Part shown: positions 14,429 to 41,763 of the stretch, piece by piece
Numbering within the stretch: position 1 is the first letter of the stretch
Layout: each line of letters starts with the position of its first letter
NCBI RefSeq assembly: GCF_009795715.1
Contig: NZ_WTCR01000010.1
Coordinates: 1 to 64,000 of the forward strand
DNA: 64,000 nt
DNA from: Labilibaculum euxinicum
Lineage (GTDB): Bacteria; Bacteroidota; Bacteroidia; Bacteroidales; Marinifilaceae
Reading direction: 5' to 3'
The notes under the pieces: generated by a model
The model's database searches: none
The model's input: the letters and a program-made list of their open reading frames with translations, nothing else
What the model was told of the DNA's origin: nothing
Program-made: the position numbers and the translations under genes

Positions 14429-14908
14429 ATAGCCTGTCCCGAACTTGTTTCGGGAGAACTCGCCAACTTAGTCATCCTTGTGTGTGTGTGAAAAATCTTC
14501 TCATGGCTCGTTTCATATGAATCATTTTAGCTTAGAGATGCTCTTCGTTTTCGAAATGCACTTGCTCTGATGCAACAAGGTAGAAAATGTGAGGGAATGT
14601 ATAATTATCTATTGCTTAAAATATGCTTATTCATAATCCTCAGCTTGAAATATTTTTATTCCCTCTCCTTTTAGCTGAGGCAATCAAAGAAAATCTTCTG
14701 ACTAAAGACAAAGAATAAATAACTGCATAGAATAAGATCACTTATCCTCTGCTTTAACTGGGGTAAGCAAAACGCATCACTTGTCCTCTGCTTTAGCTGG
14801 GGCAGTATATTTTTTTTGTTTTTATCGTATTTCTCCTTAGGTTTATTAGTCAAGCAGTCAATCAATTATCAGGTTTTTCAATCTAATTTTAAATACAAAT
14901 CAACAGGC
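14429..14908. repeat. Intergenic region with a TCCCGAA hairpin and degenerate family C copies
   Basis: Near 14436-14454 GTCCCGAAC/GTTTCGGGA forms a hairpin. From about 14640 to 14810 three worn family C fragments occur (TTTTAGCTGAGGCAATC, ATCCTCTGCTTTAACTGGGG, GTCCTCTGCTTTAGCTGGGG). An open frame on the minus strand here is made of these repeats and is not called. Confidence 0.6.
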
Positions 14909-15658: not shown

Positions 15659-15683
15659 TTCCGAACTGTATATACATTTAAAT

Positions 15684-16904: not shown

Positions 16905-16915
16905 AAGAAAAAGAT

Positions 16916-18133: not shown

Positions 18134-18166
18134 CCGGGTTAATATCCACCTTAAAAGAACAAAAAA

Positions 18167-22642: not shown

Positions 22643-23996
22643 ACTTCTTAATTTTATTGTACAAAGTTTGTCGTGTTACTCCTAATTGCGCCGATACAGC
22701 AGAAAGATTCCCCATTTGCTTTTCGATTGCTCCCAAAATCAACTGCTTCTCCATATCTTCCAATGTGCCGCCAAAGGCTTCAGCAGCCGAGAATTCATCC
22801 ATTTTAAAAACAAAATCTTTTGCACTAATTAAGTGTGTATCGCTAAGGATTACAGCTTTTTCTATAGCATGCTGCAATTCACGAACATTACCGGGCCAAC
22901 GGTAAGTTTGTAATTTCGCGATGGCTTCCGGTGCAATAACAAGTCCGTTCTTATTGTATTTTTCAGCGTAAAGCTTCACAAAAAACTGCACCAATTCGGG
23001 AATGTCAGCAATACGGTCGCGCAAGGACGGCAATTCAATTTGTATGGTGTTGATCCGGTAAAGCAAATCTTCCCGAAAACGTCCTTCTCCAATCATTTTA
23101 ACCAGATTACAGTTGGTCGCACAAACCAATCGTACATCAATATCAACAGGCAAATTTTCGCCCAGTCGGGTTAGTGTCCTGTTCTGCAGTACCGATAGCA
23201 GCTTCGCCTGCATTGGCATGGATAAATTTCCAATTTCGTCGAGAAAGAGTGTGCCTTCGTTGGCCGCTTCAATTTTCCCCATTCTATCCATTCCGGCATC
23301 GGTAAATGCTCCTTTTTTGTGCCCGAACAATTCACTCTCAAACAAATTTTCGGCTATGGATCCCATATCAACGGTAACCATCACATTCTGGCTTCGGTTC
23401 GACAGCCGATGAATCTCTTTGGCAACCAATTCCTTTCCGGTTCCATTTTCTCCCGTAATCAGAATATTCGCATTGGTCATGGCCACTTTTCGAACCACAT
23501 CCATCACTTTCTCCCAAGCCGGCGAACTTCCAATAATGTGATTCTTATTTTTGTTGATTTCAGCAATCAATTCATTTTCCTTTAAGCGAAGATTCTTTAC
23601 CTCTTTTCTGGAATGGCTTAATTTCCAGGCCATCTCGATAGTCGTCAGCATCTTCTCATTCTCCCAAGGTTTCAGAACAAAATCGACAGCTCCCGAACGC
23701 ACTGCTTTCACAGCCAACTCTACATCTCCATAGGCAGTAATCATGACAACACTCAATCCCGAATTGTATTCTAAAATCTGATTCAACCAATAAATTCCTT
23801 CGTTTCCGGTATTAATTCCTGCTTTAAAATTCATATCCAAAAGCACAACATCGTAGCTGTCACTTTTCAATTCTGAAAGCAAGGCGTTTGGACTCGACAA
23901 ACATTTTACTTTTTTACAGCTTCCTGTCAGTAACAAATCCAAAGCGCTTAAAATGCTTTTATTGTCATCAACAATTAAAATTTTGGCTTCTTTCAT
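22632..23996 (-). CDS. Sigma-54-dependent response regulator, NtrC family
   Basis: 454 residues. Receiver domain (about 1-120, phospho-acceptor Asp54 in VVLLDMNFKAG, Lys109). AAA+ domain with Walker A GENGTGKE (182-189), the sigma-54 contact loop GAFTDA (229-234), Walker B LFLDE (250-254) and arginine fingers. C-terminal Fis-type HTH (MGNLSAVSAQLGVTRQTLYN). It activates sigma-54 promoters when phosphorylated by the overlapping kinase. The divergent 16-kb ABC cluster is the obvious target; a palindrome and a -24-like element lie between. Confidence 0.93.
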   Translation of the reverse strand: MKEAKILIVDDNKSILSALDLLLTGSCKKVKCLSSPNALLSELKSDSYDVVLLDMNFKAGINTGNEGIYWLNQILEYNSGLSVVMITAYGDVELAVKAVRSGAVDFVLKPWENEKMLTTIEMAWKLSHSRKEVKNLRLKENELIAEINKNKNHIIGSSPAWEKVMDVVRKVAMTNANILITGENGTGKELVAKEIHRLSNRSQNVMVTVDMGSIAENLFESELFGHKKGAFTDAGMDRMGKIEAANEGTLFLDEIGNLSMPMQAKLLSVLQNRTLTRLGENLPVDIDVRLVCATNCNLVKMIGEGRFREDLLYRINTIQIELPSLRDRIADIPELVQFFVKLYAEKYNKNGLVIAPEAIAKLQTYRWPGNVRELQHAIEKAVILSDTHLISAKDFVFKMDEFSAAEAFGGTLEDMEKQLILGAIEKQMGNLSAVSAQLGVTRQTLYNKIKKYGL

Positions 23997-24357: not shown

Positions 24358-25611
24358 ATGTCAATGGATCGTAAAATTGAAGTGAAGAAGGGTTTTAAAA
24401 CCAAACATATTTATATCCTTATTGGGATCATATTTCTTGGATTTTTAGTGTGGTTGCTCTTGAGCAGTTCTACCTCTACCTATCGAACCGAACTCGATAA
24501 ACTCACCATATCAGACGTTTCGCAGGCAGAGTTTAAAGATTACATTTCGATTATCGGAACGGTTGAACCCAAAACAACCATCTATCTGGATGTTGAAGAA
24601 GGTGGTAAAGTTGTCGAAAAATTAATTGACGAAGGAGAATTGGTGAAAAAAGGCGATATTATTATCAGGCTGATTAACAACGATCTTAAATTGCAGATTC
24701 TCAATACCGAGTCGTCGCTTGCCTATCAGGCCAATGAGCTGCGCAATACTTTGATTAATATGGAACAGCAGAAAATCAGCAACAAACAGCAAATTCTTAG
24801 CATCGACAGTGATATCATCAGACAAAAAAGACAATACGAACAGAACCAACTTTTATTCGAAAAGGGATTTATCTCCAAAGAAGTCTACTTAAGATCGAAG
24901 GAAGATTATGACCTTTCCCTGCAAGACCGCCAGTTAAGATATCAACGAATGGTTCAGGACTCCATTTTTCGGGAGAATCAGAAAACACAAATGAACAGCA
25001 GTCTGAATAACATGAAACAAAACCTCGAAATGGTTCGGGAGCGCTTGGAGAATTTGAACATTAAAGCTCCGGCTGATGGTCAGCTGGGAAGTCTGGATAT
25101 TGAAATCGGTCAATCGATTAACCGGGGCGAAAGAATAGGCCAGCTTCATATTCTGAACAATTTTAAAGTGCTTGCCGAGGTCGACGAACATTATATTGAC
25201 CGTGTCCGCCGCGATTTAAGTGCTTCGCTGCAGCGAAACGATCAGGAGTTTATTTTGAAAACTAAAAAAGTATATCCGGAAGTTCGCGATGGCCGTTTTA
25301 AGGTGGATCTGATTTTTGATGGAAAATCGCCGGAGAATCTGCGCACCGGACAAACCTATCACATAAAACTGGAATTGGGACAAGCCGTTGAAGCTACACT
25401 GCTGTCCCGTGGTGGATTCTTTCAAAGCACGGGCGGACAATGGGTATTTGTTTTGGATGAATCGGGACGGTTTGCCACCAAACGAAACATCAAAATCGGC
25501 AGACAAAATTCTCAATATTTCGAGGTATTGGAAGGATTGCAGACAGGTGAGAAAGTGATTACATCCAGTTACGATACTTTCGGAGATAATGAACGGATTG
25601 ATTTTAAATAA
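24358..25611 (+). CDS. HlyD/MacA-type periplasmic adaptor (membrane-fusion protein)
   Basis: 417 residues. One N-terminal TM (IYILIGIIFLGFLVWLLLSS, about 16-36), then a lipoyl-like half-motif (GGKVVEKLIDEGELVKKGD), a long alpha-helical hairpin (about 120-230, Gln/Asn/Arg rich), the second lipoyl half (NIKAPADGQLGSLDIEIGQS) and beta-barrel/membrane-proximal domains. It links an inner-membrane ABC pump to an outer-membrane channel. It is the first gene of the ABC array. No TolC-like gene is in the cluster, so the outer-membrane partner must be encoded elsewhere. Confidence 0.87.
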   Translation: MSMDRKIEVKKGFKTKHIYILIGIIFLGFLVWLLLSSSTSTYRTELDKLTISDVSQAEFKDYISIIGTVEPKTTIYLDVEEGGKVVEKLIDEGELVKKGDIIIRLINNDLKLQILNTESSLAYQANELRNTLINMEQQKISNKQQILSIDSDIIRQKRQYEQNQLLFEKGFISKEVYLRSKEDYDLSLQDRQLRYQRMVQDSIFRENQKTQMNSSLNNMKQNLEMVRERLENLNIKAPADGQLGSLDIEIGQSINRGERIGQLHILNNFKVLAEVDEHYIDRVRRDLSASLQRNDQEFILKTKKVYPEVRDGRFKVDLIFDGKSPENLRTGQTYHIKLELGQAVEATLLSRGGFFQSTGGQWVFVLDESGRFATKRNIKIGRQNSQYFEVLEGLQTGEKVITSSYDTFGDNERIDFK

Positions 25612-25728: not shown

Positions 25729-26418
25729 ATGATTAACACAGTAAACCTAAGTAAGGTATTTAGAACCGATGAGATTGAAACTTTGGCTCTTAACAATGTA
25801 AATCTGAAAATCAACAAAGGCGAATTTGCTGCCATTATGGGTCCATCGGGTTGCGGTAAATCTACCCTGATGAATATTCTGGGTTTGCTCGATAATCCTT
25901 CGGAAGGACAATACACGTTTGATAGTACCGAAGTATCGGGTTTAAAAGAAGGTCAGCGCACCGATCTGCGAAAAGGTAACATTGGTTTTGTTTTTCAGAG
26001 TTTTAACCTGATTGATGAGTTGAATGTATTCGAAAATGTTGAAATGCCATTGGTTTATCAGCGAATCAGCAGTAAAACCAGAAAAGAGATGGTGAACAAA
26101 GTTCTGGATCGAATGAACATGAGTCATCGTGCACAACACTATCCTCAACAGCTGTCCGGTGGTCAGCAGCAGCGTGTGGCAATAGCCCGTGCGGTTGTTT
26201 CCAACCCAGGATTAATTCTTGCCGATGAGCCAACGGGTAATCTGGATTCGAAAAACGGACAAGAAGTAATGGAACTGCTTACCGAACTAAACCGCGAAGG
26301 AACAACAATCATCATGGTAACTCACTCCATACAAGATGCCGGCTATGCTCACCGAATCATCAATCTGTTTGATGGAAAAGTTGTGATGGAAGAAAGTCTG
26401 GTTGAGGAAGTAATGTAA
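25729..26418 (+). CDS. ABC transporter ATP-binding protein, MacB/LolD type
   Basis: 229 residues. Walker A GPSGCGKS (38-45), Q-loop VFQSFNL, signature [15 protein letters not shown] (142-156), Walker B LILADEP (162-168) and H-loop VTHS are complete. It is the only ATPase in the array and is followed by six permease genes, so one ATPase dimer probably serves several alternative permeases. 117 bp separate it from the adaptor gene and 45 bp from the first permease. Confidence 0.9.
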
Positions 26419-26463: not shown

Positions 26464-28782
26464 ATGATATCTAATCATTTGAAATCTTTTGCTCTGCACC
26501 TTTGGAAAAATAAACTTTATAGTGTGATCACTATTTTGGGTTTTGCCATATCAATCATGTTTATTCTCCTTTTGAGTATTTATATAAAAAATGAATATTC
26601 GGCCGATCAATTTCATTTGAAAAAAGACAGGATTTTTCGTATGACTCATGGGGAAGAATCTGGTTTTGCACCCCCATCCGGACCATTGCTGGTGCAAAAA
26701 TTTCCGGAAGTAGAAAATTTTGCCAGAACCCGAAATATAGGAGTTTATGTAAAAGCTCCCGGCACTCCTAAATTGAAAAACCTGACACTATTTGCAGATT
26801 CATCCTTTCTTAGCATTTTCTCATTCAAGATGCTTAACGGCGATAATAAAACTGCATTAAGCAGGGGAAACGCAGTTGTTTTAACGAAATCTTTTGCTTA
26901 TAAACTGTTTGGTAAACTTCCGGAATTGGGAACGACTCTTACAATTAACGATGATTTTGACCTTGAAGTAACCGGCATTATGGAAGATGTACCTGACAAC
27001 ACGCACTTTCAGAAATTTGATATGCTTGTTAATTTCCCTACTCTGGGAAAAGTATTTGGGATGAGTGATTTTTTGGAATCGTATAACAGCAATTCTTACG
27101 GCTTGTATATTTTAACGAAACCCAATACCAATATTCAGGCTAAAGCTCCCGAAATATTAAAAATATTCAAGGAAGTTAATTGGATGTTTAAACGAGAATA
27201 TGCAACATCTATTGAATTAGAGCCAATTGTTGATTCGTACTTCAGTACGTCCATATCCTACGATACTAAGAATAAAAGCAAAGGTTTTCTTCAGATATTA
27301 TCGGGTATTGTATTTCTGATATTGGTGCTTTCCATTATCAACTACGTGAATCTTACGGTCGCTCAATCGTCGTTTCGAAGCCGTGAAATTGCAATCAAAA
27401 AATTAATTGGCGGAAAGAAAAAAGACTTGTTTTTGCAAAGTATGTCCGAATCGATTATCCTTAGCTTCTTCTCTTTACTCCTTGCAGTTATCTTGTGTTT
27501 TCAGGTAGTTCCGGTTTTCAATTATTTACTGGATGCAAAACTCAATTTTATTGATGAATTCACATGGATCAATATTTGCATTGCTCTTTTATTTATGGGT
27601 GCTATTGGCATTATTTCAGGAATAATCCCCGCCATTAAAATTGCAAGGTTTGATCCCATTGATGTTATGAAAGGTAAAATCAGAATGAAGGAGAAAAGTA
27701 TCTATTCCCGAATCATGGTTAGTTTTCAATACCTCATTATTATTACCTTAATCACAAGTGCTTTTTTCATCAATAAACAAACTAATTTTCTGCGGAATCA
27801 TCAACTGGGTTTCGAACAGGAAAACATGCTTTGTTTTGAGAGCGAAATACCTCGTGAGAAACAGCGTGTTTTGCAGGAAATACTGAAAAAAATCCCCGGA
27901 GTTGAAGATGTTTGTTTAAGTGCCGGCACACCCCTTGACGGAGGGAACAACTTATGTTTTACCTATAACGACAAAGAGCTAAGCTTTCAACATTTTATTG
28001 TAGATACCAGTTTTTTTAGATTGTTGAACATTCCGATTAGAAAAACAGGCATTGCCTTTTCTAAAGACATTTGCTTGCTGAATGAAGCCGCGGTAAAAGA
28101 ATTGGAATTGCCCGAAAATGAGAGCAATTTCAAACTACAAGGTACTGAATACCCCATTTACGGAATCGTCAAAAATTTCCATTTCAGGGATTTAAAAAGC
28201 AAATTAGGCCCTGCTTATTTTCACATTCTAAAACCCGGTCAGTATGCCTGGAGCTATGTAATAAAATTAAATGGTAAAAATAATTACGAAACCATTCAAA
28301 AAATTAAAAAAGCACACAGCGACTTTACTGATGGTACGCCATTACAATTGGAATTCTTTGACGAAACGGTTCACAACTGGTACGAAAAGGAAGACAAAAC
28401 CGGCAAAATTGTAATGTATTTTACTCTGCTAACTGTAATTATTTCGGTTATGGGATTGTTTGCCATGTCGCTTTATTACGTTCAGCAAAAAAGAAAAGAA
28501 ATCGGCATCCGCAAAGTTAACGGAGCCAAAACCAAAGAAATACTGGCTATGCTAAACAAAGATTTCCTGAAATGGGTAGTCATTGCCTTTGTATTTGCCT
28601 GCCCCATTGCCTGGTATGCCATGCACAAATGGCTCGAGAACTTTGCCTATAAAACAGAACTATCTTGGTGGATTTTTGCCTTGGCAGGACTCATTGCCCT
28701 GGGAATTGCATTGCTTACGGTTTCGTTTCAATCGTGGAGAGCCGCTACAAGGAATCCGGTGGAGAGTTTGAGGTATGAATAA
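26464..28782 (+). CDS. FtsX-family permease 1 of 6 (double MacB_PCD-FtsX module)
   Basis: 772 residues, about twice a standard permease. Two modules, each with a leading TM, a periplasmic MacB_PCD domain and an FtsX domain of three TM segments: TM1 near 20-42, FtsX block about 280-400, second leading TM about 420-440, final FtsX block about 660-770. The coupling motif KEIGIRKVNGAKTKEI lies before the last TM pair. The final 71 codons including the stop (28570-28782) are nearly identical to those of the next five genes: 5 of 213 bases differ from permease 2 by eye. Confidence 0.88.
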   Translation: MISNHLKSFALHLWKNKLYSVITILGFAISIMFILLLSIYIKNEYSADQFHLKKDRIFRMTHGEESGFAPPSGPLLVQKFPEVENFARTRNIGVYVKAPGTPKLKNLTLFADSSFLSIFSFKMLNGDNKTALSRGNAVVLTKSFAYKLFGKLPELGTTLTINDDFDLEVTGIMEDVPDNTHFQKFDMLVNFPTLGKVFGMSDFLESYNSNSYGLYILTKPNTNIQAKAPEILKIFKEVNWMFKREYATSIELEPIVDSYFSTSISYDTKNKSKGFLQILSGIVFLILVLSIINYVNLTVAQSSFRSREIAIKKLIGGKKKDLFLQSMSESIILSFFSLLLAVILCFQVVPVFNYLLDAKLNFIDEFTWINICIALLFMGAIGIISGIIPAIKIARFDPIDVMKGKIRMKEKSIYSRIMVSFQYLIIITLITSAFFINKQTNFLRNHQLGFEQENMLCFESEIPREKQRVLQEILKKIPGVEDVCLSAGTPLDGGNNLCFTYNDKELSFQHFIVDTSFFRLLNIPIRKTGIAFSKDICLLNEAAVKELELPENESNFKLQGTEYPIYGIVKNFHFRDLKSKLGPAYFHILKPGQYAWSYVIKLNGKNNYETIQKIKKAHSDFTDGTPLQLEFFDETVHNWYEKEDKTGKIVMYFTLLTVIISVMGLFAMSLYYVQQKRKEIGIRKVNGAKTKEILAMLNKDFLKWVVIAFVFACPIAWYAMHKWLENFAYKTELSWWIFALAGLIALGIALLTVSFQSWRAATRNPVESLRYE

Positions 28783-28797
28783 ATCTAAAATGACAAT

Positions 28798-31188
28798 ATG
28801 CTTTGGTACAATTTTAAATACGCAATAAGAAACATTCTTAGACAGAAAACCTATAGTATCACAAATATTATTGGCTTGTCCGTTTCGCTTGCTTCCGTTT
28901 TTTTAATTCTTTATTACATTCAATTTGAGACTGGCTTTGATCAATATTTTTCTAATAGTGATAGAGTTGTCCGTTTCACAATAGAATATCAAAAAAAAGA
29001 TTACAACAATCATTTTGCACGAGTAAAAAATCCTGTTATTCAATACTTGGCTGATGATTTTCCGGAGGTAGAATATATGGCTCGTCTTTCTCCATTTAAA
29101 CAGTGTGCTGTAAAAATTGGTGAAAACAAATTTTACAGCAAAGGAGCTTATGCCACCGATTCGAATTATTTCAAAGTTTTCAATGGCACATTGTTGTTGG
29201 GAAATCCCAATAAAATATTAAATTCTAAAGGTCAGGCTGTTATTTCAGAATCGCTTCGAAACAAATTCTTTGGCCCAGAAAATCCGATAGGCAAGCAAAT
29301 TTCTTTGGAGCATCTACACGATCCAAAATTTCATAATTATACTATTGTTGGAATCCTAAAAGATGTTCCCGCACAATCTCATTTTCATCCTGAAATTCTA
29401 ATCTCTCTCGAAAATCAAGCTGATTATTCAGCATGGAATTATACCTATTTACTCTTAGACAAAGCTGAGAGTATTAAAAGGGTGAGTAAACAGTTTAATC
29501 AATTTAAGAAAAAACATTTTAGTGAAAAAGATATAACCTCCAACATTCTTCATCTGCAAGCTATTCATGATATTCATCTTCATAGTAACAAGGACAGAGA
29601 AATTGAAATCAATGGAGATATAAAAAACATTCATTTCTTAATACTATTGACCATTCTTATCTTTCTTGTTGCTTTATTAAATTTCACAAATATTAATATC
29701 GTTTCTACAAAAGAACGATCTAGAAACATATTAATAAACCATTTATTGGGTGGAAAATTGCAGCACATTGCAATGGTTGCTTTGTGGCAAAACTTACTAA
29801 TTGTTGGGGTTTCGGTTGTTTTAGGAATTGGCTTGGCTCGAATTGCTTATTCGAGTTTTCAACAATTATTTTACTTACCAGATTTTATTATTACAAAGTC
29901 TACTCTCAAGCACTTCTTACAAATAATCTTTTTTCTTATTGTATGTGGTTCTTTAATAGGAACCTTACCATTACTAAAGCACAAATTAAAATCTAATTTA
30001 CTCAATAAGACTTCTCTAAGTTTACAAGCCAAATCTGGAAAAAAAACAAGAGGAGTGTTACTATCTCTTCAATTTGCAATTGTAGTCGGCTTATTAATTA
30101 CCACTTTCGTTATTCAAAGTCAAATTAATCTGTTAATGGAAAACCGACTGGGAGGAACGAACAAAAATATTATCAACATTACCGATGTATCGCCCTCTCT
30201 AACTTCTAAATATGATCTCTTTAAAAATAAATTATTAAAAATCTCAGGAATTGAAAACGTTACTGCTTCAATGGAGGAACCCAGTGGTGAAATAATGGAT
30301 GCTTTTCCCTATCATCTGGAAGGTGTTACCCAAGAAGAATTCTCCAGTAATCCGTTAAATGTATTTACATGTGATCACAATTTCCTTGATTTTTATCATG
30401 TACAAATATTGGCTGGAAACAACTTCACTTCAGATACTGTAAGCAAACAATATATTCTTAATAAAACAGCATTACAATACATTGATCCAAAACTACAAGC
30501 CGAAGATTTCCTAAACAGATCATTTGAGTTCAACTTTTTTTACAAGAAACTTTTACCCAAAGGACAAATCGTTGGAATTTGTGATGATCTGCATTTAACC
30601 AGCATGAATGAAAAGGAAAAACCATTGGCAATTCATTATCAAAACATGGTTAATTCGTGCATAAGCATACGCTTTACCCCAGAAGCCCTTCAAAGTGCTT
30701 TAAGTGGCATTCAAGATACATGGCAAGAATTATTCCCTGATTATGCACTAAGCTATCAATTCATTGATGATTTGTATTTACAACGATATCAACAATACAT
30801 CAACCAGCGGAATTTCCTCAGTGCTTTATCCTTACTGGCAATCCTAATTGCTTGTATCGGCCTAATTGCAATCTCTATTTCAATTATACAAGCAAGAAAA
30901 AGAGAAATAAGCATTAGAAAGGTGAATGGAGCCAAATCTTTTGAGATCATACACCTGCTTAATAAATATTTCCTGAAATGGGTAGTCATCGCCTTTGTAT
31001 TTGCCTGCCCCATTGCCTGGTATGCCATGCACAAATGGCTCGAAAACTTTGCCTACAAAACAGAACTATCTTGGTGGATTTTTGCCTTGGCAGGACTCAT
31101 TGCCCTGGGAATTGCATTGCTTACGGTTTCGTTTCAATCGTGGAGAGCCGCTACAAGAAATCCGGTGGAGAGTTTGAGGTATGAGTAA
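28798..31188 (+). CDS. FtsX-family permease 2 of 6
   Basis: 796 residues with the same double-module architecture. It begins MLWYNFKYAIRNILRQKTYS with TM1, and has a middle FtsX block around 275-400 (IHFLILLTILIFLVALLNFT) and a final block preceded by KREISIRKVNGAKSFEI. Starts 15 bp after permease 1; the spacer and first codons (CTAAAA..ATATGCTTTGGTA) are nearly repeated before permease 6, which also begins MLWY. Overall similarity to permease 1 is low except for the shared last 213 bp (30976-31188). Confidence 0.88.
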   Translation: MLWYNFKYAIRNILRQKTYSITNIIGLSVSLASVFLILYYIQFETGFDQYFSNSDRVVRFTIEYQKKDYNNHFARVKNPVIQYLADDFPEVEYMARLSPFKQCAVKIGENKFYSKGAYATDSNYFKVFNGTLLLGNPNKILNSKGQAVISESLRNKFFGPENPIGKQISLEHLHDPKFHNYTIVGILKDVPAQSHFHPEILISLENQADYSAWNYTYLLLDKAESIKRVSKQFNQFKKKHFSEKDITSNILHLQAIHDIHLHSNKDREIEINGDIKNIHFLILLTILIFLVALLNFTNINIVSTKERSRNILINHLLGGKLQHIAMVALWQNLLIVGVSVVLGIGLARIAYSSFQQLFYLPDFIITKSTLKHFLQIIFFLIVCGSLIGTLPLLKHKLKSNLLNKTSLSLQAKSGKKTRGVLLSLQFAIVVGLLITTFVIQSQINLLMENRLGGTNKNIINITDVSPSLTSKYDLFKNKLLKISGIENVTASMEEPSGEIMDAFPYHLEGVTQEEFSSNPLNVFTCDHNFLDFYHVQILAGNNFTSDTVSKQYILNKTALQYIDPKLQAEDFLNRSFEFNFFYKKLLPKGQIVGICDDLHLTSMNEKEKPLAIHYQNMVNSCISIRFTPEALQSALSGIQDTWQELFPDYALSYQFIDDLYLQRYQQYINQRNFLSALSLLAILIACIGLIAISISIIQARKREISIRKVNGAKSFEIIHLLNKYFLKWVVIAFVFACPIAWYAMHKWLENFAYKTELSWWIFALAGLIALGIALLTVSFQSWRAATRNPVESLRYE

Positions 31189-31249
31189 ATAATCGTTTCA
31201 AAAAACTCCTGAAGCAAAAAGAAAAACACCAACAGTAAAAACATATCCC

Positions 31250-33601
31250 ATGATCACATACGATATAAAATCAGCTCTAAAAAGTCTTTTCTCAGATAGA
31301 AAATTCACTTTGATCAATATAATTGGATTTGCTTTTGCAATATCTGTCTGTTTGGCTATCTCCTTATTTTTACTTCAAGAGTATTCCTACGATAGTTATC
31401 CTCAAAATGCTGATCGTATTGTTCGAATTATTGATTCGAATAAAAACTCAAGTAATATAGATTATCGAGTAAAAGATATCTTATTAGAAAACTATCCTGA
31501 ATTTGAAAATGCATGTTTGGTACAACGAGAAACGAATCCAACAAATATTAATATTGGCAGCAAAGCATTTAGCATTTCAGATATCATGTCCGTTGACGAT
31601 CAATTTTTTAAATTATTTTCGACTTCATTTTTATATGGAAATCCATCAAAACCATTTGAAAATATCAATTCGGCAATTCTTACAGAGAGTAAGGCCAAAC
31701 AATTATTTGGTTCGGAAAATCCCATTGGAAAGGAAGTTTTATTTGAAAGAACAAATCTTTTAACCATAACAGGAGTTATTAAAGATTTCCCATCCAATTC
31801 CAGTATATCGGCAGGTTTATTATTAAATGCTGAAAATGACGATTTTAAATTCTCATTTAGTTGCGAGAAATACTCAGATAAAAGTACTCATCGCTGGGAA
31901 TTTAGAATATATACTCTTATTGGTGAAGACATAGATCATCATGCTCTAAGTGAAAAAATCAATTCCAAGCTTGGTTCATTACAACCATATATTGATAAAA
32001 TTGGGTTTCTTCCTATTAAAAACATGTACTTAAATGACTCCACTATCGGGAGTCACTCAAAAAGAGGAAACCCGGAACTTCTAAAATTACTCGCAGCAAT
32101 TGCCTTCATTATATTAATCCTTGCCATGGTTAATTACATCAACCTAACACTGGCTCAACAAAATAAGCGAAATAAAACTACTGGCATCAAGAAAAGTTTT
32201 GGAGCATCCACTTCCGATTTATTTGTTCATTTTATTATTGAATCGGTAATCGTATCTGCAATTGCTTTCACTTTATCTATTGTTTTGGTCTATGCCTTAT
32301 CTCCTCTATATAATTCGGTATTTGGTTCTCCCATTTATATTGACAAATTGCTCGACACCTCTGTCCTGTTATGCTTGCTTGTGTGTATTTTAATCGTTGG
32401 TTGCATTAGTGGTATAGCTCCGGCTCTTGTTTTATCCAGATCGAATCCAAACGATATCATAAAAAAAACTGCCCGCCAAGGCAAAACTCAATCCTACTTT
32501 CGTAATGCACTTATCATTTTTCAGTTTACGGTTTCAATCGTCTTGATTATCTCCTTACTGGTTGTGCAAAAACAAATTTCATTTGTCAAAAACAAAAATC
32601 CCGGATTCTCAGAAGAACATCTGATCTGCCTTTCAATCCCCTATCTTCCAAAGGAAGAAAAATCAAAAACTCAATCATTGGTAAATGAACTAAGAAACTA
32701 TCCGTTTTTTCAAAATATATCTCTAACCAATGGTGTACCCGGCAAAATAAATTTTCAAATGGGATCTGGAATCGAAAATAAAGATCTTGCTATTCCTTGT
32801 TTAATTGTTGATACAGCTTTTATTTCCACTTTTCAACTTCAGATTGTAAAAGGTCGAAATTTAGAATCCGGAGATTACGGAAAAGTTTGTATGGTTAATG
32901 AATCATTCTATAATTACTTTGAATTTGCCAATTTAGAAAATAAAAAATATGATAATTACAGAGACGATGGTTTAGATATTATAGCCGTTGTGAATGATTT
33001 TCAATACGGATCTTCGCACAATAAAATAGCACCACTCTGTATTATATTTGCTGAGAATAATAATTATTATAATCTGAGCATAAGAATTGCAGCAAATAGT
33101 CTTCCCTCTGCAATGAAAACAATAAAAGAAAAATGGGGAGAAATAATGCCAGCCTATCCTCTTAAGTATCAATTCTTCGATGATTGGTTTGATCAGATGT
33201 ATGAGAAAGAAGAACATTTCGCCAAAACGATTGGGCTATTTGCTCTATTGGCTATTGCTATTTCTTGTTTTGGAATTTTAGGTCTCGCAATTTTCTCATC
33301 GGAACAACGCACAAAAGAAATAGGTGTTCGTAAAGTGAACGGAGCCAAAACCTACGAAATCATAAGCATGCTAAACAGAGGATTTTCTAAATGGATAGCC
33401 ATTGCCTTTGTAATTGCCTGCCCCATTGCCTGGTATGCCATGCACAAATGGCTCGAAAACTTTGCCTACAAAACAGAACTTAGCTGGTGGATTTTTGCCT
33501 TGGCAGGACTCATTTCCATGGGAATTGCATTGCTTACGGTTTCGTTTCAATCGTGGCGGGCAGCTACAAGGAATCCGGTGGAGAGTTTGAGGTATGAGTA
33601 A
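31250..33601 (+). CDS. FtsX-family permease 3 of 6
   Basis: 783 residues, same layout: TM1 (INIIGFAFAISVCLAISLFL), periplasmic domain, FtsX block with LKLLAAIAFIILILAMVNYI, second leading TM (LIIFQFTVSIVLIISLLVV), final block after KEIGVRKVNGAKTYEI. The periplasmic parts differ clearly from permeases 1 and 2, so binding specificity probably differs. The last 213 bp (33389-33601) belong to the shared 3' cassette, with WIAIAFVIACPIAWYAMHKW as its start. Confidence 0.88.
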   Translation: MITYDIKSALKSLFSDRKFTLINIIGFAFAISVCLAISLFLLQEYSYDSYPQNADRIVRIIDSNKNSSNIDYRVKDILLENYPEFENACLVQRETNPTNINIGSKAFSISDIMSVDDQFFKLFSTSFLYGNPSKPFENINSAILTESKAKQLFGSENPIGKEVLFERTNLLTITGVIKDFPSNSSISAGLLLNAENDDFKFSFSCEKYSDKSTHRWEFRIYTLIGEDIDHHALSEKINSKLGSLQPYIDKIGFLPIKNMYLNDSTIGSHSKRGNPELLKLLAAIAFIILILAMVNYINLTLAQQNKRNKTTGIKKSFGASTSDLFVHFIIESVIVSAIAFTLSIVLVYALSPLYNSVFGSPIYIDKLLDTSVLLCLLVCILIVGCISGIAPALVLSRSNPNDIIKKTARQGKTQSYFRNALIIFQFTVSIVLIISLLVVQKQISFVKNKNPGFSEEHLICLSIPYLPKEEKSKTQSLVNELRNYPFFQNISLTNGVPGKINFQMGSGIENKDLAIPCLIVDTAFISTFQLQIVKGRNLESGDYGKVCMVNESFYNYFEFANLENKKYDNYRDDGLDIIAVVNDFQYGSSHNKIAPLCIIFAENNNYYNLSIRIAANSLPSAMKTIKEKWGEIMPAYPLKYQFFDDWFDQMYEKEEHFAKTIGLFALLAIAISCFGILGLAIFSSEQRTKEIGVRKVNGAKTYEIISMLNRGFSKWIAIAFVIACPIAWYAMHKWLENFAYKTELSWWIFALAGLISMGIALLTVSFQSWRAATRNPVESLRYE

Positions 33602-33635
33602 ATCAATTAACGATTACAAATGAATAATTAATGCA

Positions 33636-36008
33636 ATGAATTTTTATAACATCAAATTATCTTTAAAGAGCTTACTAAAAAACAGAGTGGTAAGTGCAAT
33701 TAATATTGGTGGACTTGCACTTGGCATAAGTATTAGTTTATTGATTTTTGCTTTCGTAGACAAGGAAGAATCAATGGACAAATGTATTTCTAAGTCTGAC
33801 AATATATTTGTTCTGGAAAATGATCAAGATTCATATGTCTCTTCCAAAATGGTTGAATTGATCCGCATGAATATTCCTGAAATAAAGCACATTACATATG
33901 CTCAAAATGAATGGTCTCCACAAGTATTTGTTGAATACAACAATAAAAAAATAAAAATAAAGCATTTAATTGTTACAGATTCAGCTTTTTTTCGGGTTCT
34001 CCCAATGAAAGCTTTATATGGAAATCCATCAACTGCACTAACAACAGCAAACAAAATTGTACTTACTGAAACGCTCTCAAAAAAGATTTTTGGAAATGAA
34101 AATCCTATTGGTAAAACAATTACATACAATGCAACCAATTTGCAAAATGAATTAATTGTTGTAGGCGCTGTAATTAAAGATTTGTCTCACAACAGTTCTT
34201 TTAAATTTGATGCCGTTTTATCAGAAGATACAAATAACAAAATCGATTGGTATATTGGAAATAAAAATAGCTGGGGCACTCAAAACTATATCTCTTATTT
34301 TAGAATACCGACTAATGGCAATATAAACTTGATTAATCAGAAACTTAAAAATATTCCATTAACAGATGTTGAAGAAGATTTTAAAAGCAGCATTAAACTT
34401 AGCTCTCTCCCATTACAGAATTCTTATTTCGAAGCACCAGACATCGAAATACAAAGGCATGGAAATCATCTTACAATTATAATTATACGAATCACTGGCA
34501 TCTTAATCCTACTTTTGGCCTGTATCAACTACATTAATTTAGTGTCAACTCAAAAAATAAAAAGATTGCGCAATATCGGAATCTTAAAAGTTCTGGGAAG
34601 TAAAAAGAGGAAAATCATTCAATTGATTAGTACTGAATCTGGTTTAGTTCTATTAATTACATCTGCTCTGGTTATCACATTGCTTTATTTCTTAACAGAA
34701 GGTTTAAATCGTCTTACTCAATCTCAGTTTACCCTTGCTGAAATTCTTTCAGGATGGAATCTAGTTGTGTTCATCCTAATATTAATTGTTACACTGCTAA
34801 TTACAGGAATCATACCAGGCATTATTCTAAGTAGTAATGAAACGACTCAACTACTTAAAAATAAAATCTCCATAAATCATAAAAATTATCTTCGCAATAT
34901 TTTATTGGTTTTTCAATTTACAATTTCCATTATATTACTAACAAGTATTCTTTTCATTAAGAAGCAGAATAATTTCCTTATCAGCAAAGACCCTGGGTTT
35001 AAAAGAGAAAATATTATTTATACAACAACAAATGAAGAAATTTCAAACTTAGGAGATGCATTTCAAAATGAAATGAAAAAAATAGCAGGCGTAGAAGACA
35101 TCACCTTCTCATCATCAGTAATTGGGTATAATGAATCGAATTGGGGACGTGACTTACTAAATAAGACGGAACAATATAATATATGGTTTTCTAATTTTTA
35201 TGTTTCTCCTAACTTTTTCAAGTTTTTCGGAATTGAATTGGTTCGAGGAAAACAATTTAATGAATATTCGCCAAAAACAGGAGATTGGATTTTTAATCAA
35301 ACCGCAATTAAAAAGTTCAGAATTGAACAATTGGAAGATGCTAAACTTTTGAATTGGAATGGAACAAAACAAGAGCCTATTATTGCGGAAGTTAAAGATT
35401 TTAATTTCGAATCTATGCACGTTCCCATAAGACCTGTTGGTTTCAGATGTAGAAATAATGTGGATGAAGTAGCCTATTTTAAACTAATAACAACCAATGG
35501 CATGGCTTTTAAGCAATGCTTATCCGCTATTCAAAAAAAGTGGACTAAGCTCTCTCCTAAGTTCCCTTTAGAAATTAAGTTTATGAATAGCTCATGGGAG
35601 GCCTTATATACAAAAGAAAAACAGTTTCAGAAAATGCTAAATTATGCGACTGCAATTTCTATTTTACTTTCTTGTTTAGGTCTGATTAGTTTAACTTTTT
35701 TTATAGTTGAGACCCAAACCAAAGAAATTGGATTGAGGAAAGTAAATGGAGCCAAACCTTATGAAATTGTACAGATGCTAAACAAAGGATTTGCAAAATG
35801 GGTAGTCATCGCCTTTGTAATTGCCTGCCCAATTGCCTGGTATGCCATGCACAAATGGCTCGAGAACTTTGCCTACAAAACAGAACTTAGCTGGTGGATT
35901 TTTGCCTTGGCAGGACTCATTGCCATGGGAATTGCATTGCTTACCGTTTCGTTTCAATCGTGGCGGGCAGCTACGAGGAATCCGGTGGAGAGTTTGAGGT
36001 ACGAATAA
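33636..36008 (+). CDS. FtsX-family permease 4 of 6
   Basis: 790 residues. TM1 at about 20-40 (VSAINIGGLALGISISLLIF), central FtsX block with IIIRITGILILLLACINYIN, second leading TM NILLVFQFTISIILLTSILF, final block after KEIGLRKVNGAKPYEI. The body is A/T-rich in codon choice, but the 3' cassette (35796-36008) is not, a visible step in composition at the boundary. 34 bp after permease 3. Confidence 0.88.
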   Translation: MNFYNIKLSLKSLLKNRVVSAINIGGLALGISISLLIFAFVDKEESMDKCISKSDNIFVLENDQDSYVSSKMVELIRMNIPEIKHITYAQNEWSPQVFVEYNNKKIKIKHLIVTDSAFFRVLPMKALYGNPSTALTTANKIVLTETLSKKIFGNENPIGKTITYNATNLQNELIVVGAVIKDLSHNSSFKFDAVLSEDTNNKIDWYIGNKNSWGTQNYISYFRIPTNGNINLINQKLKNIPLTDVEEDFKSSIKLSSLPLQNSYFEAPDIEIQRHGNHLTIIIIRITGILILLLACINYINLVSTQKIKRLRNIGILKVLGSKKRKIIQLISTESGLVLLITSALVITLLYFLTEGLNRLTQSQFTLAEILSGWNLVVFILILIVTLLITGIIPGIILSSNETTQLLKNKISINHKNYLRNILLVFQFTISIILLTSILFIKKQNNFLISKDPGFKRENIIYTTTNEEISNLGDAFQNEMKKIAGVEDITFSSSVIGYNESNWGRDLLNKTEQYNIWFSNFYVSPNFFKFFGIELVRGKQFNEYSPKTGDWIFNQTAIKKFRIEQLEDAKLLNWNGTKQEPIIAEVKDFNFESMHVPIRPVGFRCRNNVDEVAYFKLITTNGMAFKQCLSAIQKKWTKLSPKFPLEIKFMNSSWEALYTKEKQFQKMLNYATAISILLSCLGLISLTFFIVETQTKEIGLRKVNGAKPYEIVQMLNKGFAKWVVIAFVIACPIAWYAMHKWLENFAYKTELSWWIFALAGLIAMGIALLTVSFQSWRAATRNPVESLRYE

Positions 36009-36081
36009 ACAAAATTGGGCAGATATCTGCTTACAAATAAAATGGAATAACAAGAGTAACGAAACTACATAAAAAACGAAT

Positions 36082-38448
36082 ATGAATCTTCCACTAAACC
36101 TGACGTTAGCAATCCGTAATATCTTCAAGAAGAAGACACAATCCATAATCAGTATTTTAGGATTGGGCATAGGTGTAGGCTGTGTTTTTCTTTTGATGTT
36201 GCTTTACATCCACGAAAATTCATTTAATGGTTCCTTCTCAAACAAACAATTACTCTACAGAGTTTTGCAAGGCAACGATTGTCGCACTTCATTTCCTTTG
36301 GCAAGCACAAGTAAAGATGAAATTCCTTTAATTGATAATTATTTCAGGTACTATCAAACTGCCGATGTTGAACTAAAAGATTCCCGCAATGAAATTGTAC
36401 AGGATCATCAGTTTGCATTTTCAGATGCCGGCATGTTTGATTGTCTTGGTATCCGTTTTATACAGGGAAAACCTGCCCAATCAAAATCTGAAGTTTGCAT
36501 TTCTGAAACTACTGCACAAAAATACTTTAACAGCCTCAACGTCTGCAATCAGCTTCTAAAAATCAAGCTGAATAATCAATTTATATCTTTACGGATTACA
36601 GGCGTTTACAAAAATTTTCCTACCAATTCTACTTTTAATGCCAATTTCATTGCTGATATTGAATTAACAAAAAAGGTTCTCAGTCACAACCAACAAATGT
36701 TCGGGCATTATGGCCAGCAAAACGAAGAGTTTAAAGACTGGAATCACTTTCCGTTTCATAGTTATTTGCTCCTGAATTCAAAAGCAAATCCAGAGAAGAT
36801 TGTTCGCAGCATCCAAACCTACAAAGAACGAACAAATCATGAGGAACGGAAAACAATGGATTTTAAATTGCAGGCAATTACCGATATCTATTTAAAGTCA
36901 AATGATGTTACCGGAGATACATTTACACCGTCGGGAAATTCGAAGCAATTAATCTATTTTTTGGCCATTGCCTTATTTATTTTACTCATCGCAATTGTCA
37001 ACTATATTTTTCTTACCAAAGCAAAAATAACCTCCCGCTTAAAAGAATTGGGAACTCAAAAAGCATTGGGAGCATCAGGCATTTCCATCAGAAAACAAAT
37101 CGTTCTTGAATCAAATTTAATTTCTTTCATTAGCCTTATTCCTGCTTTGTTCGTTGTTGTTATTGGCATTCCATTTCTAAATGCAACTTTGGATCGGAAC
37201 CTGAGTATGGAATTGTTCTCGATGTGGCAGGTGTGGTTCTTATTAATTATCATTGTTTTGCTTACCGGTTCCGTTGCCGGATTAGCAATCGGCATACATG
37301 TTTCCAAAGTTTCAACCGTACTGTTGCTTTTGGGTAAAGTATCTCAAAAACCCAAAACTAAATCCTGGAACAACTCCTTTCTTAGTTTGCATTTTGCCAT
37401 ATTTATTGTGTTGGTTGTTGGTGTTCTAACGGTAAAAAAACAACTCCATTATGCCCAAAACAATTCCCAAAACATCAATCCGAAAAATATTATTATCTGC
37501 GAATTAAACTCTCCGGAATTAAGAAATCAGTTCGATGTTATTCAAACCGAAGTTGAAAAAATTCCCGGGGTTATGTATTCCGCCGGATCTTCTTTTATTC
37601 CTCCTTTTAACAGCTTTCTTCCGGTTAATTTGCGATACGAAAATGAAAGTATTCAATTCGACGGACTAATTATGGGTAAGGGGATGGCAGAACTTCTGGA
37701 ACTTAAACTTATAGAAGGTGAAAATTTTGGAGCCTTTCGCACCGATCAAACGGAAATGATTTTTAACGAATCGGCTGCCAAACAGTATAATCTGAAAGCT
37801 GGTGAAATGTTTAATGGATGTTATGTAAAAGGAATCGTTAAAGATTTTAATGCTCATTCGTTACGAAGAATGATACAACCCTTGGTTATTCTTCAGCAAG
37901 CCCCTAGAAAAATGAGGCTGTTTGCCATAAAAACAAATGGGATAAATGATACTGCAATTACAGAGTCTGTTCAAAAATTATTTAAAGAGATTTCTCCCGA
38001 TAAAATGGTAAGAGTTTATTCCTTAACCGATCAGATCACTGAATTCTACCAGACAGAACAGCAGCAAGCAAAGCTAATCAGTGCCTTCTCCTTACTTGCC
38101 ATTGCGCTATCGATAATGGGATTATTGGGCATGGTACTCAATACAATCTCAAAAAAGACAAAGGAAATTGGTATCCGCAAAGTAAACGGAGCCAAAACCT
38201 ACGAGATTATTGCAATGCTTAACAAAGGTTTTGCAAAATGGGTAGCCATCGCCTTTGTATTGGCCTGTCCCATTGCCTGGTATGCCATGCACAAATGGCT
38301 CGAAAACTTTGCCTACAAAACAGAACTTAGCTGGTGGATTTTTGCCGTGGCAGGACTCATTGCCCTGGGAATTGCCCTATTTACCGTTTCAATTCAATCG
38401 TGGCGGGCAGCTACAAGGAATCCGGTGGAGAGTTTGAGGTATGAATAA
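36082..38448 (+). CDS. FtsX-family permease 5 of 6
   Basis: 788 residues, same double-module topology: TM1 (IISILGLGIGVGCVFLLMLL), central block near LIYFLAIALFILLIAIVNYI, second leading TM (FLSLHFAIFIVLVVGVLTVK), final block after KEIGIRKVNGAKTYEI. It has the widest upstream gap of the later genes (73 bp). The shared 3' cassette covers 38236-38448, slightly more diverged at its end (ALFTVSIQSW). Confidence 0.88.
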   Translation: MNLPLNLTLAIRNIFKKKTQSIISILGLGIGVGCVFLLMLLYIHENSFNGSFSNKQLLYRVLQGNDCRTSFPLASTSKDEIPLIDNYFRYYQTADVELKDSRNEIVQDHQFAFSDAGMFDCLGIRFIQGKPAQSKSEVCISETTAQKYFNSLNVCNQLLKIKLNNQFISLRITGVYKNFPTNSTFNANFIADIELTKKVLSHNQQMFGHYGQQNEEFKDWNHFPFHSYLLLNSKANPEKIVRSIQTYKERTNHEERKTMDFKLQAITDIYLKSNDVTGDTFTPSGNSKQLIYFLAIALFILLIAIVNYIFLTKAKITSRLKELGTQKALGASGISIRKQIVLESNLISFISLIPALFVVVIGIPFLNATLDRNLSMELFSMWQVWFLLIIIVLLTGSVAGLAIGIHVSKVSTVLLLLGKVSQKPKTKSWNNSFLSLHFAIFIVLVVGVLTVKKQLHYAQNNSQNINPKNIIICELNSPELRNQFDVIQTEVEKIPGVMYSAGSSFIPPFNSFLPVNLRYENESIQFDGLIMGKGMAELLELKLIEGENFGAFRTDQTEMIFNESAAKQYNLKAGEMFNGCYVKGIVKDFNAHSLRRMIQPLVILQQAPRKMRLFAIKTNGINDTAITESVQKLFKEISPDKMVRVYSLTDQITEFYQTEQQQAKLISAFSLLAIALSIMGLLGMVLNTISKKTKEIGIRKVNGAKTYEIIAMLNKGFAKWVAIAFVLACPIAWYAMHKWLENFAYKTELSWWIFAVAGLIALGIALFTVSIQSWRAATRNPVESLRYE

Positions 38449-38463
38449 ATCTAAAACGAAAAT

Positions 38464-40848
38464 ATGCTTTGGTATCATTTAAAATTATCGGTTTTACGAT
38501 TACTTAAGAACAGAGCCTTTTCTGTGACCAATATTCTTGGCCTAAGTTTTGGCATCGCTTCCTTCTTTGTCCTTTTCATTCATGTGCAAAACGAACGCAG
38601 CTATGACAGGCATATAAAAGATTATCAGGATATCTACAGAGTAGCATCAACTCCTTCGCATGTAGAAGATCCTTGGGCCAGAAGTTTAGGATTTATTAAG
38701 GAAACCTCAACAGATTTTCCGGAAGTAGAAGACGCAACACAATTTTCACATTGTCAGTCGGGAACTATTAAAATACACGAACAAAATGTATCGCAAGAAG
38801 ACATTTTATCAGTCGATACCAATTTTATGAACTTATTCGGTATTGAAAGTTTGATTGGCAATTTGTCTGACATTACAAAACCCAATGTTGCCTTCATTTC
38901 TGAACGATTTGCTGAAAAACATTTTAAAGACAGAAACCCAATTGGTGAATACATTGATGTTGAGGGGCTGCAATACAGAAGAGATCTTGGGAAATATGAA
39001 ATTGTTGGTATCGTTAAAAACACCCCCATCAAAACTCATTTCAATTGCGAAATCCTGCTTTCCCAAAAAGGTTCGCTCGATGCAGCCTATGCCTCTTTGT
39101 CTGAAAGAAAAACTCAATGGGTTTACAACTATCTAAAATTAAAAAAAGGAGTTTCTCCTTCGCTTGTTGAAGAGAAACTCCTCAATGCATTCAATAATTC
39201 AAGCTTAAGACAAACCCGTGGACCCAAAGACTACGAATTCAGTCTCACAAAACTTTCCGACATTCACTTAAAATCCAATTTCAGATTTGAATTAAAAGAA
39301 AGCAATACAAAAATAAATATCAATTTATTCACTTCAGTTGCCGTTATTATTTTGATGGTTTCATTAATCAACTTTGTTAGTTTAATCACAGTTAACCTTT
39401 TTAAAAGATCAAAAGAATTTGGATTGAAAACATCCGTTGGTGCTCACAAAAAACATTTGCTCACACAAGTTCTTATTGAAGTAATTCTGCTTTGTTCATT
39501 GTCAATCATTATCGCTCTAATTTTAATTGAGGCGCTAACCCCTTACATTAATAACTTCTATGAAGTTCAATTCGATATTTTCTATTCCGAACCAATCATT
39601 TATCTGGCAATATTAACTGTTCTGATATTCAGTGGTATTCTAAGCATCCTTTTTGTGCGCTTTTTTATTTTAAAAAACAATTCAACCAGCGATATCATTA
39701 AAGGTCATACATCTTTAACCGGAAGACGTATTTTACAACCATTAATGATCTTTCAAATCCTGATTGTAATTGTGCTCATTTCATCTGCTATTTTGGTCAA
39801 CAAACAAATTTCGTACCTACTGAATAAGCCTCTTGGCTTTACAAAAGACAATGTTGTTGTCCTCAACATTAAAGATTTTTCAAAAGACCCCAATGTGTTT
39901 GCCAATGAATTGAGAAAAAAATCATCCATCGAATCAATTGGCTTTACAATGCAGCATTTTGGATATCCCACACAAACCTTATCGCTTGATGGTTTTGGGA
40001 TTGAAGGAACCGCTGAAATGTCGATGGCCAATTATGATTTTCTGAAAACAATGAACATTCCATTTGTTCACAACTACATCAACACTTCATTGGATACCAT
40101 TGAAGGAATGGTTATCAACAAGCATTTGTTTAAAAGATTGATGGAAAAACACAAAACTCTTGAGGAACTGAATTTATTTCGATCCGGAATCCCATTGGAA
40201 GCAGATCAGAGAAGAGTTGATATCATTGGCGTTGTAGAAGATTTTAATTACAGTTCTGCACACAATCAAATTGGCGACTATGTTTTCCTCATCGATGAAT
40301 CCCAAAACAGAGCAAGGTTTATGCATGTTCGCATGTCTCCTGGGAATATAAGAAGCGCCATGACCAGCATTCAGGAAGAATGGCAAAAACATTACCCCAA
40401 CCAAAAAATGGACTACTTCTTTATTGACGATAAAATTGCACAGCAATACAAATCGGAGAACATCCTGAGACGGATATTGATGAGTTTCTCTGTTCTTGGA
40501 ATTATCATCAGCATACTCGGAATTAGTGCACTCTCCTATTTTACCTCCGAACAACGCACCAAAGAAATAGGTGTCCGCAAAGTAAACGGAGCCAAAACTT
40601 TTGAGGTAATTGCAATGCTTAACAAAGGTTTTGCAAAATGGGTAGTCATCGCCTTTGTAATTGCCTGTCCAATTGCCTGGTATGCCATGCACAAATGGCT
40701 CGAAAACTTTGCCTACAAAACAGAACTAAGCTGGTGGATTTTTGCCTTGGCAGGACTCATTGCCCTGGGAATTGCATTGCTTACGGTTTCTTTTCAATCG
40801 TGGAGGGCAGCTACAAGGAATCCGGTGGAGAGTTTACGTTACGAATAG
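38464..40848 (+). CDS. FtsX-family permease 6 of 6
   Basis: 794 residues. Starts MLWYHLKLSVLRLLKNRAFS, TM1 NILGLSFGIASFFVLFIHVQ, central block INLFTSVAVIILMVSLINFV, second leading TM LMIFQILIVIVLISSAILVN, final block after KEIGVRKVNGAKTFEV. It is the last gene of the array. Its 3' cassette (40636-40848) is recognisable but has extra silent changes in the last codons (LRYE encoded differently, TAG stop) compared with the others. 15 bp after permease 5. Confidence 0.88.
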   Translation: MLWYHLKLSVLRLLKNRAFSVTNILGLSFGIASFFVLFIHVQNERSYDRHIKDYQDIYRVASTPSHVEDPWARSLGFIKETSTDFPEVEDATQFSHCQSGTIKIHEQNVSQEDILSVDTNFMNLFGIESLIGNLSDITKPNVAFISERFAEKHFKDRNPIGEYIDVEGLQYRRDLGKYEIVGIVKNTPIKTHFNCEILLSQKGSLDAAYASLSERKTQWVYNYLKLKKGVSPSLVEEKLLNAFNNSSLRQTRGPKDYEFSLTKLSDIHLKSNFRFELKESNTKININLFTSVAVIILMVSLINFVSLITVNLFKRSKEFGLKTSVGAHKKHLLTQVLIEVILLCSLSIIIALILIEALTPYINNFYEVQFDIFYSEPIIYLAILTVLIFSGILSILFVRFFILKNNSTSDIIKGHTSLTGRRILQPLMIFQILIVIVLISSAILVNKQISYLLNKPLGFTKDNVVVLNIKDFSKDPNVFANELRKKSSIESIGFTMQHFGYPTQTLSLDGFGIEGTAEMSMANYDFLKTMNIPFVHNYINTSLDTIEGMVINKHLFKRLMEKHKTLEELNLFRSGIPLEADQRRVDIIGVVEDFNYSSAHNQIGDYVFLIDESQNRARFMHVRMSPGNIRSAMTSIQEEWQKHYPNQKMDYFFIDDKIAQQYKSENILRRILMSFSVLGIIISILGISALSYFTSEQRTKEIGVRKVNGAKTFEVIAMLNKGFAKWVVIAFVIACPIAWYAMHKWLENFAYKTELSWWIFALAGLIALGIALLTVSFQSWRAATRNPVESLRYE

Positions 40849-41036: not shown

Positions 41037-41558
41037 CTATTTATTTGTCAGTTTATACCAGGTAATATCATCCCCTTGAAACTTAAATTTATCTTCCAAC
41101 TGAAAGCCTAACTTGTTCAGCACCCGCTGCGATTTTAGATTACTAAGCAAGGTCATGCTGTAAATTTCGGGAATTTTAAGCTCGGTAAAAGCATAATGAA
41201 TAGCAGCCTTTGTTGCTTCAGTAATGTATCCTTTGCCCCAATACTTACGCAGCAATCTAAATTTCAGATTGTAAAAATCACTGTGCCCGTTCTGGTTTTC
41301 CTTTTCAAATTTAAAACCAGTCCAGCCAATAAAATTCCCCGATTCCTTTTCAACAATTGCCCAACGTCCAATACCAATCCGCTCATACTGATCCCGAATC
41401 GATTCAATCATTTTTTTACTCTCGTTGATATTCCGAATGGGTTTTCTTCCTAAAAATTTATATACCTCAGCATCCGAGTCCATCTCGAACATGCTTTCGG
41501 CATCAGTTGGCAGTATTTCCCGTAGATACAATCTTTCTGTTTCAAACAATATTTTCAT
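41037..41558 (-). CDS. GNAT acetyltransferase, RimJ/RimL-like
   Basis: 173 residues from the ATG giving MKILFETERLYLREILPTDA, the usual opening of this family; the frame stays open 20 codons upstream without sense. The acetyl-CoA loop appears as LRKYWGKGYITEATKAAIHY and the C-terminal NLKSQRVLNKLGFQLEDKFK is typical. Substrate unknown. It is a single gene between repeats and the pyrophosphatase. Confidence 0.8.
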   Translation of the reverse strand: MKILFETERLYLREILPTDAESMFEMDSDAEVYKFLGRKPIRNINESKKMIESIRDQYERIGIGRWAIVEKESGNFIGWTGFKFEKENQNGHSDFYNLKFRLLRKYWGKGYITEATKAAIHYAFTELKIPEIYSMTLLSNLKSQRVLNKLGFQLEDKFKFQGDDITWYKLTNK

Positions 41559-41763
41559 TCCCAGCTCTCCTTTGTTCGTTAAAAAATCAATTTTTTTAAT
41601 CTCGCACATATCTGCCAATTGTGCAAGTTTTTAGACAAATAGATTCTTATTTAGACCAAAATATAATATTCAAGTAAGTTTCAATTAATACTTCACACTC
41701 AACTTAAACACTAAGTATAATCACAAAGAACTCAAAGAATTATTTTCGGTGTGGAATTCCTAC

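Follow-up and report, generated by a model that had tools for sequence, protein, structure and literature searches.

A tandem array of six ABC permease genes sharing a coding 3' segment in Labilibaculum euxinicum, probably a cassette array shaped by homologous recombination

Why do six neighbouring permease genes, whose bodies are only about 25-30% identical to one another, end in almost the same DNA? The question is raised by a stretch of 64,000 nucleotides (the window) from Labilibaculum euxinicum, whose genome (G000) is a 5.06 Mb draft of 39 contigs. A sequence-only reading of the window had proposed that gene conversion, or a recombination cassette, swaps periplasmic modules onto a fixed 3' end. 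The evidence presented below makes it very probable that homologous recombination has made the locus a cassette array, in which permease modules stand behind one ATPase and one adaptor.

The locus consists of a divergent kinase/regulator pair followed by an adaptor, an ATPase and six permeases of 772-796 residues. Its parts are as follows; shared tails 1 to 5 are delimited by DNA identity, the fall in pS and codon permutation, and candidate cassettes 3 to 6 by comparison of bodies and spacers among arrays.

21287-22642, minus strand: histidine kinase gene (context), divergent from the array; Pfam HATPase_c
22632-23996, minus strand: sigma-54 response regulator gene (context), divergent from the array; Pfam Response_reg, Sigma54_activat, HTH_8
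24358-25611, plus strand: HlyD-type periplasmic adaptor gene; Pfam HlyD_3, HlyD_D23; NCBIfam RND_mfp above cut-off
25729-26418, plus strand: ABC ATPase gene; Pfam ABC_tran
26464-28782, 28798-31188 and 31250-33601, plus strand: permease ORFs g1 to g3, each ending in the shared tail
33636-36008, 36082-38448 and 38464-40848, plus strand: permease ORFs g4 to g6, each ending in the shared tail
26464-28569, plus strand: permease g1 body; Pfam MacB_PCD, FtsX; structure model of g1
28570-28782, plus strand: shared tail 1
28783-30975, plus strand: candidate cassette 2, a 15-bp spacer and the g2 body; nearly identical body with other neighbours in G002
30976-31188, plus strand: shared tail 2
31189-33388, plus strand: candidate cassette 3, a 61-bp spacer and the g3 body
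33389-33601, plus strand: shared tail 3
33602-35795, plus strand: candidate cassette 4, a 34-bp spacer and the g4 body
35796-36008, plus strand: shared tail 4
36009-38235, plus strand: candidate cassette 5, a 73-bp spacer and the g5 body
38236-38448, plus strand: shared tail 5
38449-40635, plus strand: candidate cassette 6, a 15-bp spacer and the g6 body
40636-40848, plus strand: shared tail 6; stop TAG (the other five tails stop with TAA)

Genes for GNAT acetyltransferases flank the regulator and permease block on both sides (20062-20577 and 41037-41618, both on the minus strand). Upstream of the array, at 14816-18871, a LolA-like gene, two single-half FtsX/MacB_PCD permeases with unlike tails and an ABC ATPase lie in a row.

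Both MacB_PCD and FtsX score above the Pfam cut-off in all six array permeases. The AlphaFold2 model of g1 (mean pLDDT 85.4) has as its top Foldseek match YbbAP (9ge6_A, E 1.7e-18, TM 0.48 by query), followed by MacB (5gko_A, E 4.9e-12), with global TM values that are modest throughout (0.48 and lower). Since YbbAP and then MacB lead the structure matches, the model indicates that the six proteins are type VII ABC permeases (MacB/FtsX superfamily) with two halves per chain. They resemble E. coli YbbP and MacB in fold and in their MacB_PCD and FtsX domains; unlike those systems, the array has six permeases for one ATPase and one adaptor gene, and a common DNA tail. The best NCBIfam match of all six is ADOP (TIGR03434), covering most of four of the proteins and part of the other two, at scores of 169.2-258.4 that stay below the cut-off of 622.3. 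The adaptor, ATPase and permeases also match the models of the darobactin exporter DarBCD, again below the cut-offs (permeases 81-133 of 700, ATPase 293 of 375, adaptor 189 of 450). In the g1 model, residues 703-772, which form the shared tail, take in most of a helix at 690-724, a helix at 735-762 and a short C-terminal helix; the two longer helices are probably the last two membrane helices of the protein.

The six segments singled out by the sequence-only reading coincide exactly with the final 71 codons of the six ORFs, counting the stop, and its count of 5 differences in 213 bases between copies 1 and 2 is correct. Over all 15 tail pairs of the window, 5-21 of the 213 bases differ, and the longest exact matches measure 33-101 bp. 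The near-identity extends to silent positions, as had been claimed: where two permeases have the same residue (Met and Trp excluded), the codon is also identical in 756 of 892 columns of the tail, as against 1202 of 2594 elsewhere, and this excess is significant in each of the 15 pairs (p at most 3e-4; columns permuted within the pair, 20,000 permutations each). The predicted sharp drop in silent divergence at the 213-bp boundary is equally clear: mean pS, which is 0.692 in the body and 0.668 over the 30 codons that precede the tail, is 0.204 within the tail, while mean pN is 0.54, 0.22 and 0.03 in the same three segments. The 5' edge of the tail varies by pair, with common 3' runs of 210 to 297 nt without the stop. 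A tandem pair of small FtsX permeases elsewhere in the window (15684-16904 and 16916-18133), used as a control, has no common end, and the amino acid identity of its last 70 codons is 0.19. A recent duplication of whole genes was rejected as an origin of the likeness because the silent sites of the bodies are near saturation.

How much of this is a property of the family at large? When loci from different organisms are compared (29,903 pairs, a sample biased in that a tail peptide was among the search patterns), the last 70 residues have a mean ungapped identity of 0.51. Searching the whole genome with the tail DNA gave no copies beyond these six, and when the tails of six other permeases of at least 600 aa, from four loci of the same genome (L098-L101), are set against these six without gaps, nucleotide identity is 0.46-0.58. 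The likeness of the tails as protein is thus in part shared by the whole family, and what is special is the DNA identity. The earlier reading had named two findings that would count against it, uniform dS along the genes and equal conservation of the 213 bp in unlinked single-copy permeases of distant species. Here dS is not uniform, and other permeases of this genome lack the tail DNA; at the protein level, conservation of the tail across the family does hold.

Such conservation is what one would point to if the tails were kept alike without any recombination, by purifying selection on the protein together with a DNA or RNA constraint such as codon choice, RNA structure or a regulatory site. 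The array of Maribellus L064, like others of its kind, also speaks for this explanation as far as the protein is concerned, having tails that are alike as protein (aa 0.83) and not as DNA (silent-codon identity 0.47). However, a DNA constraint would conserve the silent sites of orthologous tails between species, and these sites diverge at least as much as those of the bodies: in 62 ortholog pairs (body identity of 80% or more; the same sequences recur in several pairs, which are therefore non-independent) mean pS is 0.276 in the body vs 0.361 in the tail, the tail exceeding the body in 49 pairs and not in 13. An example is g2 of G000 and G002, where pS is 0.014 in the body and 0.178 in the tail. 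We therefore reject silent-site selection as the cause of the tail identity and consider the whole constraint explanation highly improbable.

The tails behave rather as if they were overwritten within genomes. The tail closest to that of g2 in G002 belongs to g3, the gene immediately to the left of g2 in that array. Of 64 tails (two incomplete genes, G001b_4 and G006_3, being omitted), 19 have their nearest counterpart in their own genome, as compared to a mean of 4.9 and a maximum of 14 in 2000 shuffles of the genome labels. Homogenisation within genomes nevertheless seems patchy, because for 21 of the 64 tails the nearest relative is the ortholog in another genome. Linkage between the left and right parts of tails shows a weak trend (one-sided p 0.0125, from non-independent pairs; pairs with xA, xI or xH and pairs within a genome excluded). 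The picture is that of concerted evolution, in which tandem paralogs are homogenised by gene conversion and which is a general phenomenon: paralogous tails are, in patches, closer to each other than to their orthologs, unlike the rest of the gene, so tails are alike within genomes and diverged between orthologs here too. In contrast to the general case, it is confined here to a coding 3' segment, and the bodies travel as units. The fixed 3' end of the sequence-only reading should consequently be called a common end, as the tail itself is overwritten patchily within genomes.

The related arrays bear on how the bodies travel. Eight congeneric arrays have eight distinct gene orders, with 40 gene slots filled by 16 body labels (one of them, g4b, separated manually from g4 following clustering at 42% identity); G001, which is spread over many contigs, stands outside these counts, and two of its four contigs with tail matches were used. 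Modules have been reordered, gained and lost, as the earlier reading had predicted. The spacers in front of the genes go with the gene that follows: across the eight arrays, one G003 spacer of at least 120 bp being excluded, mean spacer identity is 0.80 where the downstream body is the same and the upstream gene another (30 pairs), and 0.36 where the upstream gene is the same and the downstream body another (26 pairs), the values with both neighbours the same and with neither being 0.86 (9 pairs) and 0.40 (349 pairs). For example, in four genomes the 71-bp spacer of g4b is found behind g1, g2, g4 and g5, and the 38-bp spacer of xA has the same sequence whether g2 or g4b precedes it. The exchangeable unit thus appears to be a spacer plus its downstream body. 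The swapping suggested by the sequence-only reading is borne out, but what is swapped is a spacer with nearly the whole protein, not a periplasmic module only.

Not every gene in these arrays carries the full tail. In xA and xI of G005 (L088) and xA of G003 (L086) the match is limited to about the last 30-33 bases, and xH is distant from the shared tail. If xA and xI entered by this short end match, it may represent the minimal joint. The xC gene of G003 (L086) is incomplete and interrupted, and the third gene of G006 (L089) is short and has a start that resembles xA, with 70% identity over 128 residues.

Between species, three cassettes show 98.8-99.5% identity, as compared to 84-94% in the flanking DNA. 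The g2 body differs at 12 of 2178 positions between G000 and G002 (aligned segments outside the permeases 90.1-93.0% identical), the xA body at 27 of 2187 between G003 and G005 (84.5%), and the g4b body at 14 of 2154 between G002 and G008 (87.1-94.3%). All three stand among different neighbours in the paired genomes, therefore the near-identical blocks run from joint to joint. The left edge of the g2 block lies within the upstream tail, whose last 71 bp have no differences and whose first 142 bp have 15; on the right, divergence resumes where the body ends and in its own tail. In the xA and g4b blocks the left edge is the upstream stop codon rather than a point inside the tail, and on the right their own tail turns unlike in its later part.

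One could argue that gene conversion alone has homogenised the tails, and that the arrays differ by ordinary gene gain and loss with breakpoints elsewhere. Conversion does suffice for the fall in pS and for the pairing of tails within genomes, and the weak linkage signal fits frequent conversion. Yet spacers would not be expected to go with the downstream body on this account, nor near-identical blocks to span tail to tail between different neighbours; these two observations place the joints at the tails or tail ends, and we regard conversion alone as unlikely.

A further trace of exchange at the tails may be found at the head of some arrays. Between the ATPase stop codon and the first permease, a partial tail lies outside any permease gene in G003 (L086), G004 (L087), G006 (L089) and G007 (L090), and shorter traces occur in G016 and Ancylomarina. 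Over tail positions 85-213, each of the four relics has an identity of 85-93% to the tail that it matches best (six tails were omitted from the comparison: two incomplete genes, xA twice, xI and xH). Stops lie inside the old frame in G003 and G006; in G004 and G007 the frame is open over positions 85-213. After the relic comes the spacer of the following body, i.e. that of g4 in G007 and g3 in G006. Of the 51 differences that separate the relics from these tails, 25 fall on third codon positions, the share being 69% for differences among working tails; this fits relaxed constraint, although the numbers are small. Each relic is probably the tail of a lost first gene and now serves as a left joint.

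The mechanism that we consider very probable can be outlined as follows. Most array genes end in the same coding segment, which is predicted to encode the C-terminus, the last membrane helix and the greater part of the helix before it. Where two tails cross over or one converts the other, the product would be an intact gene in frame. Such tail-to-tail events could delete, add, reorder or import one unit of spacer and body, and would at the same time keep the tails alike. Homologous recombination in E. coli needs roughly 25-30 bp, so the exact tail matches are long enough for general homologous recombination, and recombination of the RecA type is the plausible agent. The exchange may still be active, but neither strain-level nor experimental signs of present array activity were seen.

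Could the agent instead be a site-specific recombinase acting on the tail or the stop-codon region, as in integrons or shufflons? In favour of this, the units are discrete and two of the three transferred blocks have their left edge close to the stop codon. However, no integrase, invertase or transposase family was matched among the 30 window proteins scanned (of 61 listed ORFs of at least 120 aa), and the length of the common runs varies between pairs, unlike a fixed core site. Moreover, permease ORFs of at least 550 aa are all on one strand in each array read, so that modules on both strands, the mark of a shufflon or invertible array, are not found there. A recombinase of this kind is accordingly very unlikely. 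As the window belongs to a draft of 39 contigs, one may also ask whether repeats were collapsed or copied in assembly; G004 and G007, each assembled as a single contig, have the same architecture, and the tails, though similar, do differ from one another, which leaves an artefact a negligible chance.

A second tandem permease pair of the same genome (L098, G000:C3; 3230-5587 and 5716-8085 of the reverse complement) offers a comparison. Its DNA identity is 0.96 in the first 46 codons, 0.56 in the interior and 0.94 in the last 70 codons, and the counterpart pair of G006 gives 0.87, 0.56 and 0.87. Between G000 and G006 the orthologs are 0.86-0.88 identical in the interior and 0.80-0.82 in the tail. 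The two genes thus seem to be homogenised at both ends and unlike in the interior. There is a counter-sign, namely that the tails of single orthologs (G002, G007, G008) are 0.92-0.95 identical to the G000 tails, about as close as the G000 pair itself. Relatives have one or two copies at this locus (one gene each in G002, G004, G007 and G008); no strong match was found in G003 and G005, and in G001 there was a match at the 5' end only.

In a scan of public genomes, 17 of 46 tandem arrays of at least three genes have a tail silent-codon excess above 0.10, and it is negative in 7; the survey drops arrays of fewer than three genes and pairs with bodies more than 50% identical, and its sample is biased because one search pattern came from the tail. 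Five of the 17 belong to Labilibaculum or near relatives and the others include Draconibacterium L073 and Bacteroidales L034, hence the homogenising process may reach beyond the genus.

It is useful to compare the array with known systems. Integrons, Rhs/CDI tips and pilin silent cassettes combine a conserved end with a variable module, new modules being joined at the conserved part. The permease array likewise has a conserved end and a variable module. It differs from them in several respects. Firstly, it is the 5' nine tenths of an entire gene that vary. Secondly, the modules are complete genes standing in a row. Thirdly, no dedicated recombinase was found among the 30 window proteins scanned. 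Within the Bacteroidota, to which the present array also belongs, surface proteins of Porphyromonas gingivalis undergo allelic exchange and are diversified by homologous recombination and gene conversion, as reported in PMC5266723. That case concerns surface virulence proteins, and the terms "permease" and "ABC transporter" do not occur in that text. No description of the arrangement or its family was found in the titles and abstract openings of the open-licence literature, among the matches listed.

As to its meaning, the benefit may be that the transport or envelope modules served by one ATPase keep changing. More tentatively, and with the odds rather against it, we speculate that Bacteroidota use translated permease 3' ends as reusable joints, i.e. 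that such arrays are integrase-free cassette libraries exchanging modules between species, and that second-order selection keeps the tail recombinogenic. Because the joint falls within the coding sequence, an exchange still yields a full-length protein, and the array offers a readable record of module gain and loss in a multi-permease ABC system. Trees of such permeases mix two histories, and ortholog calls made from their C-termini can mislead.
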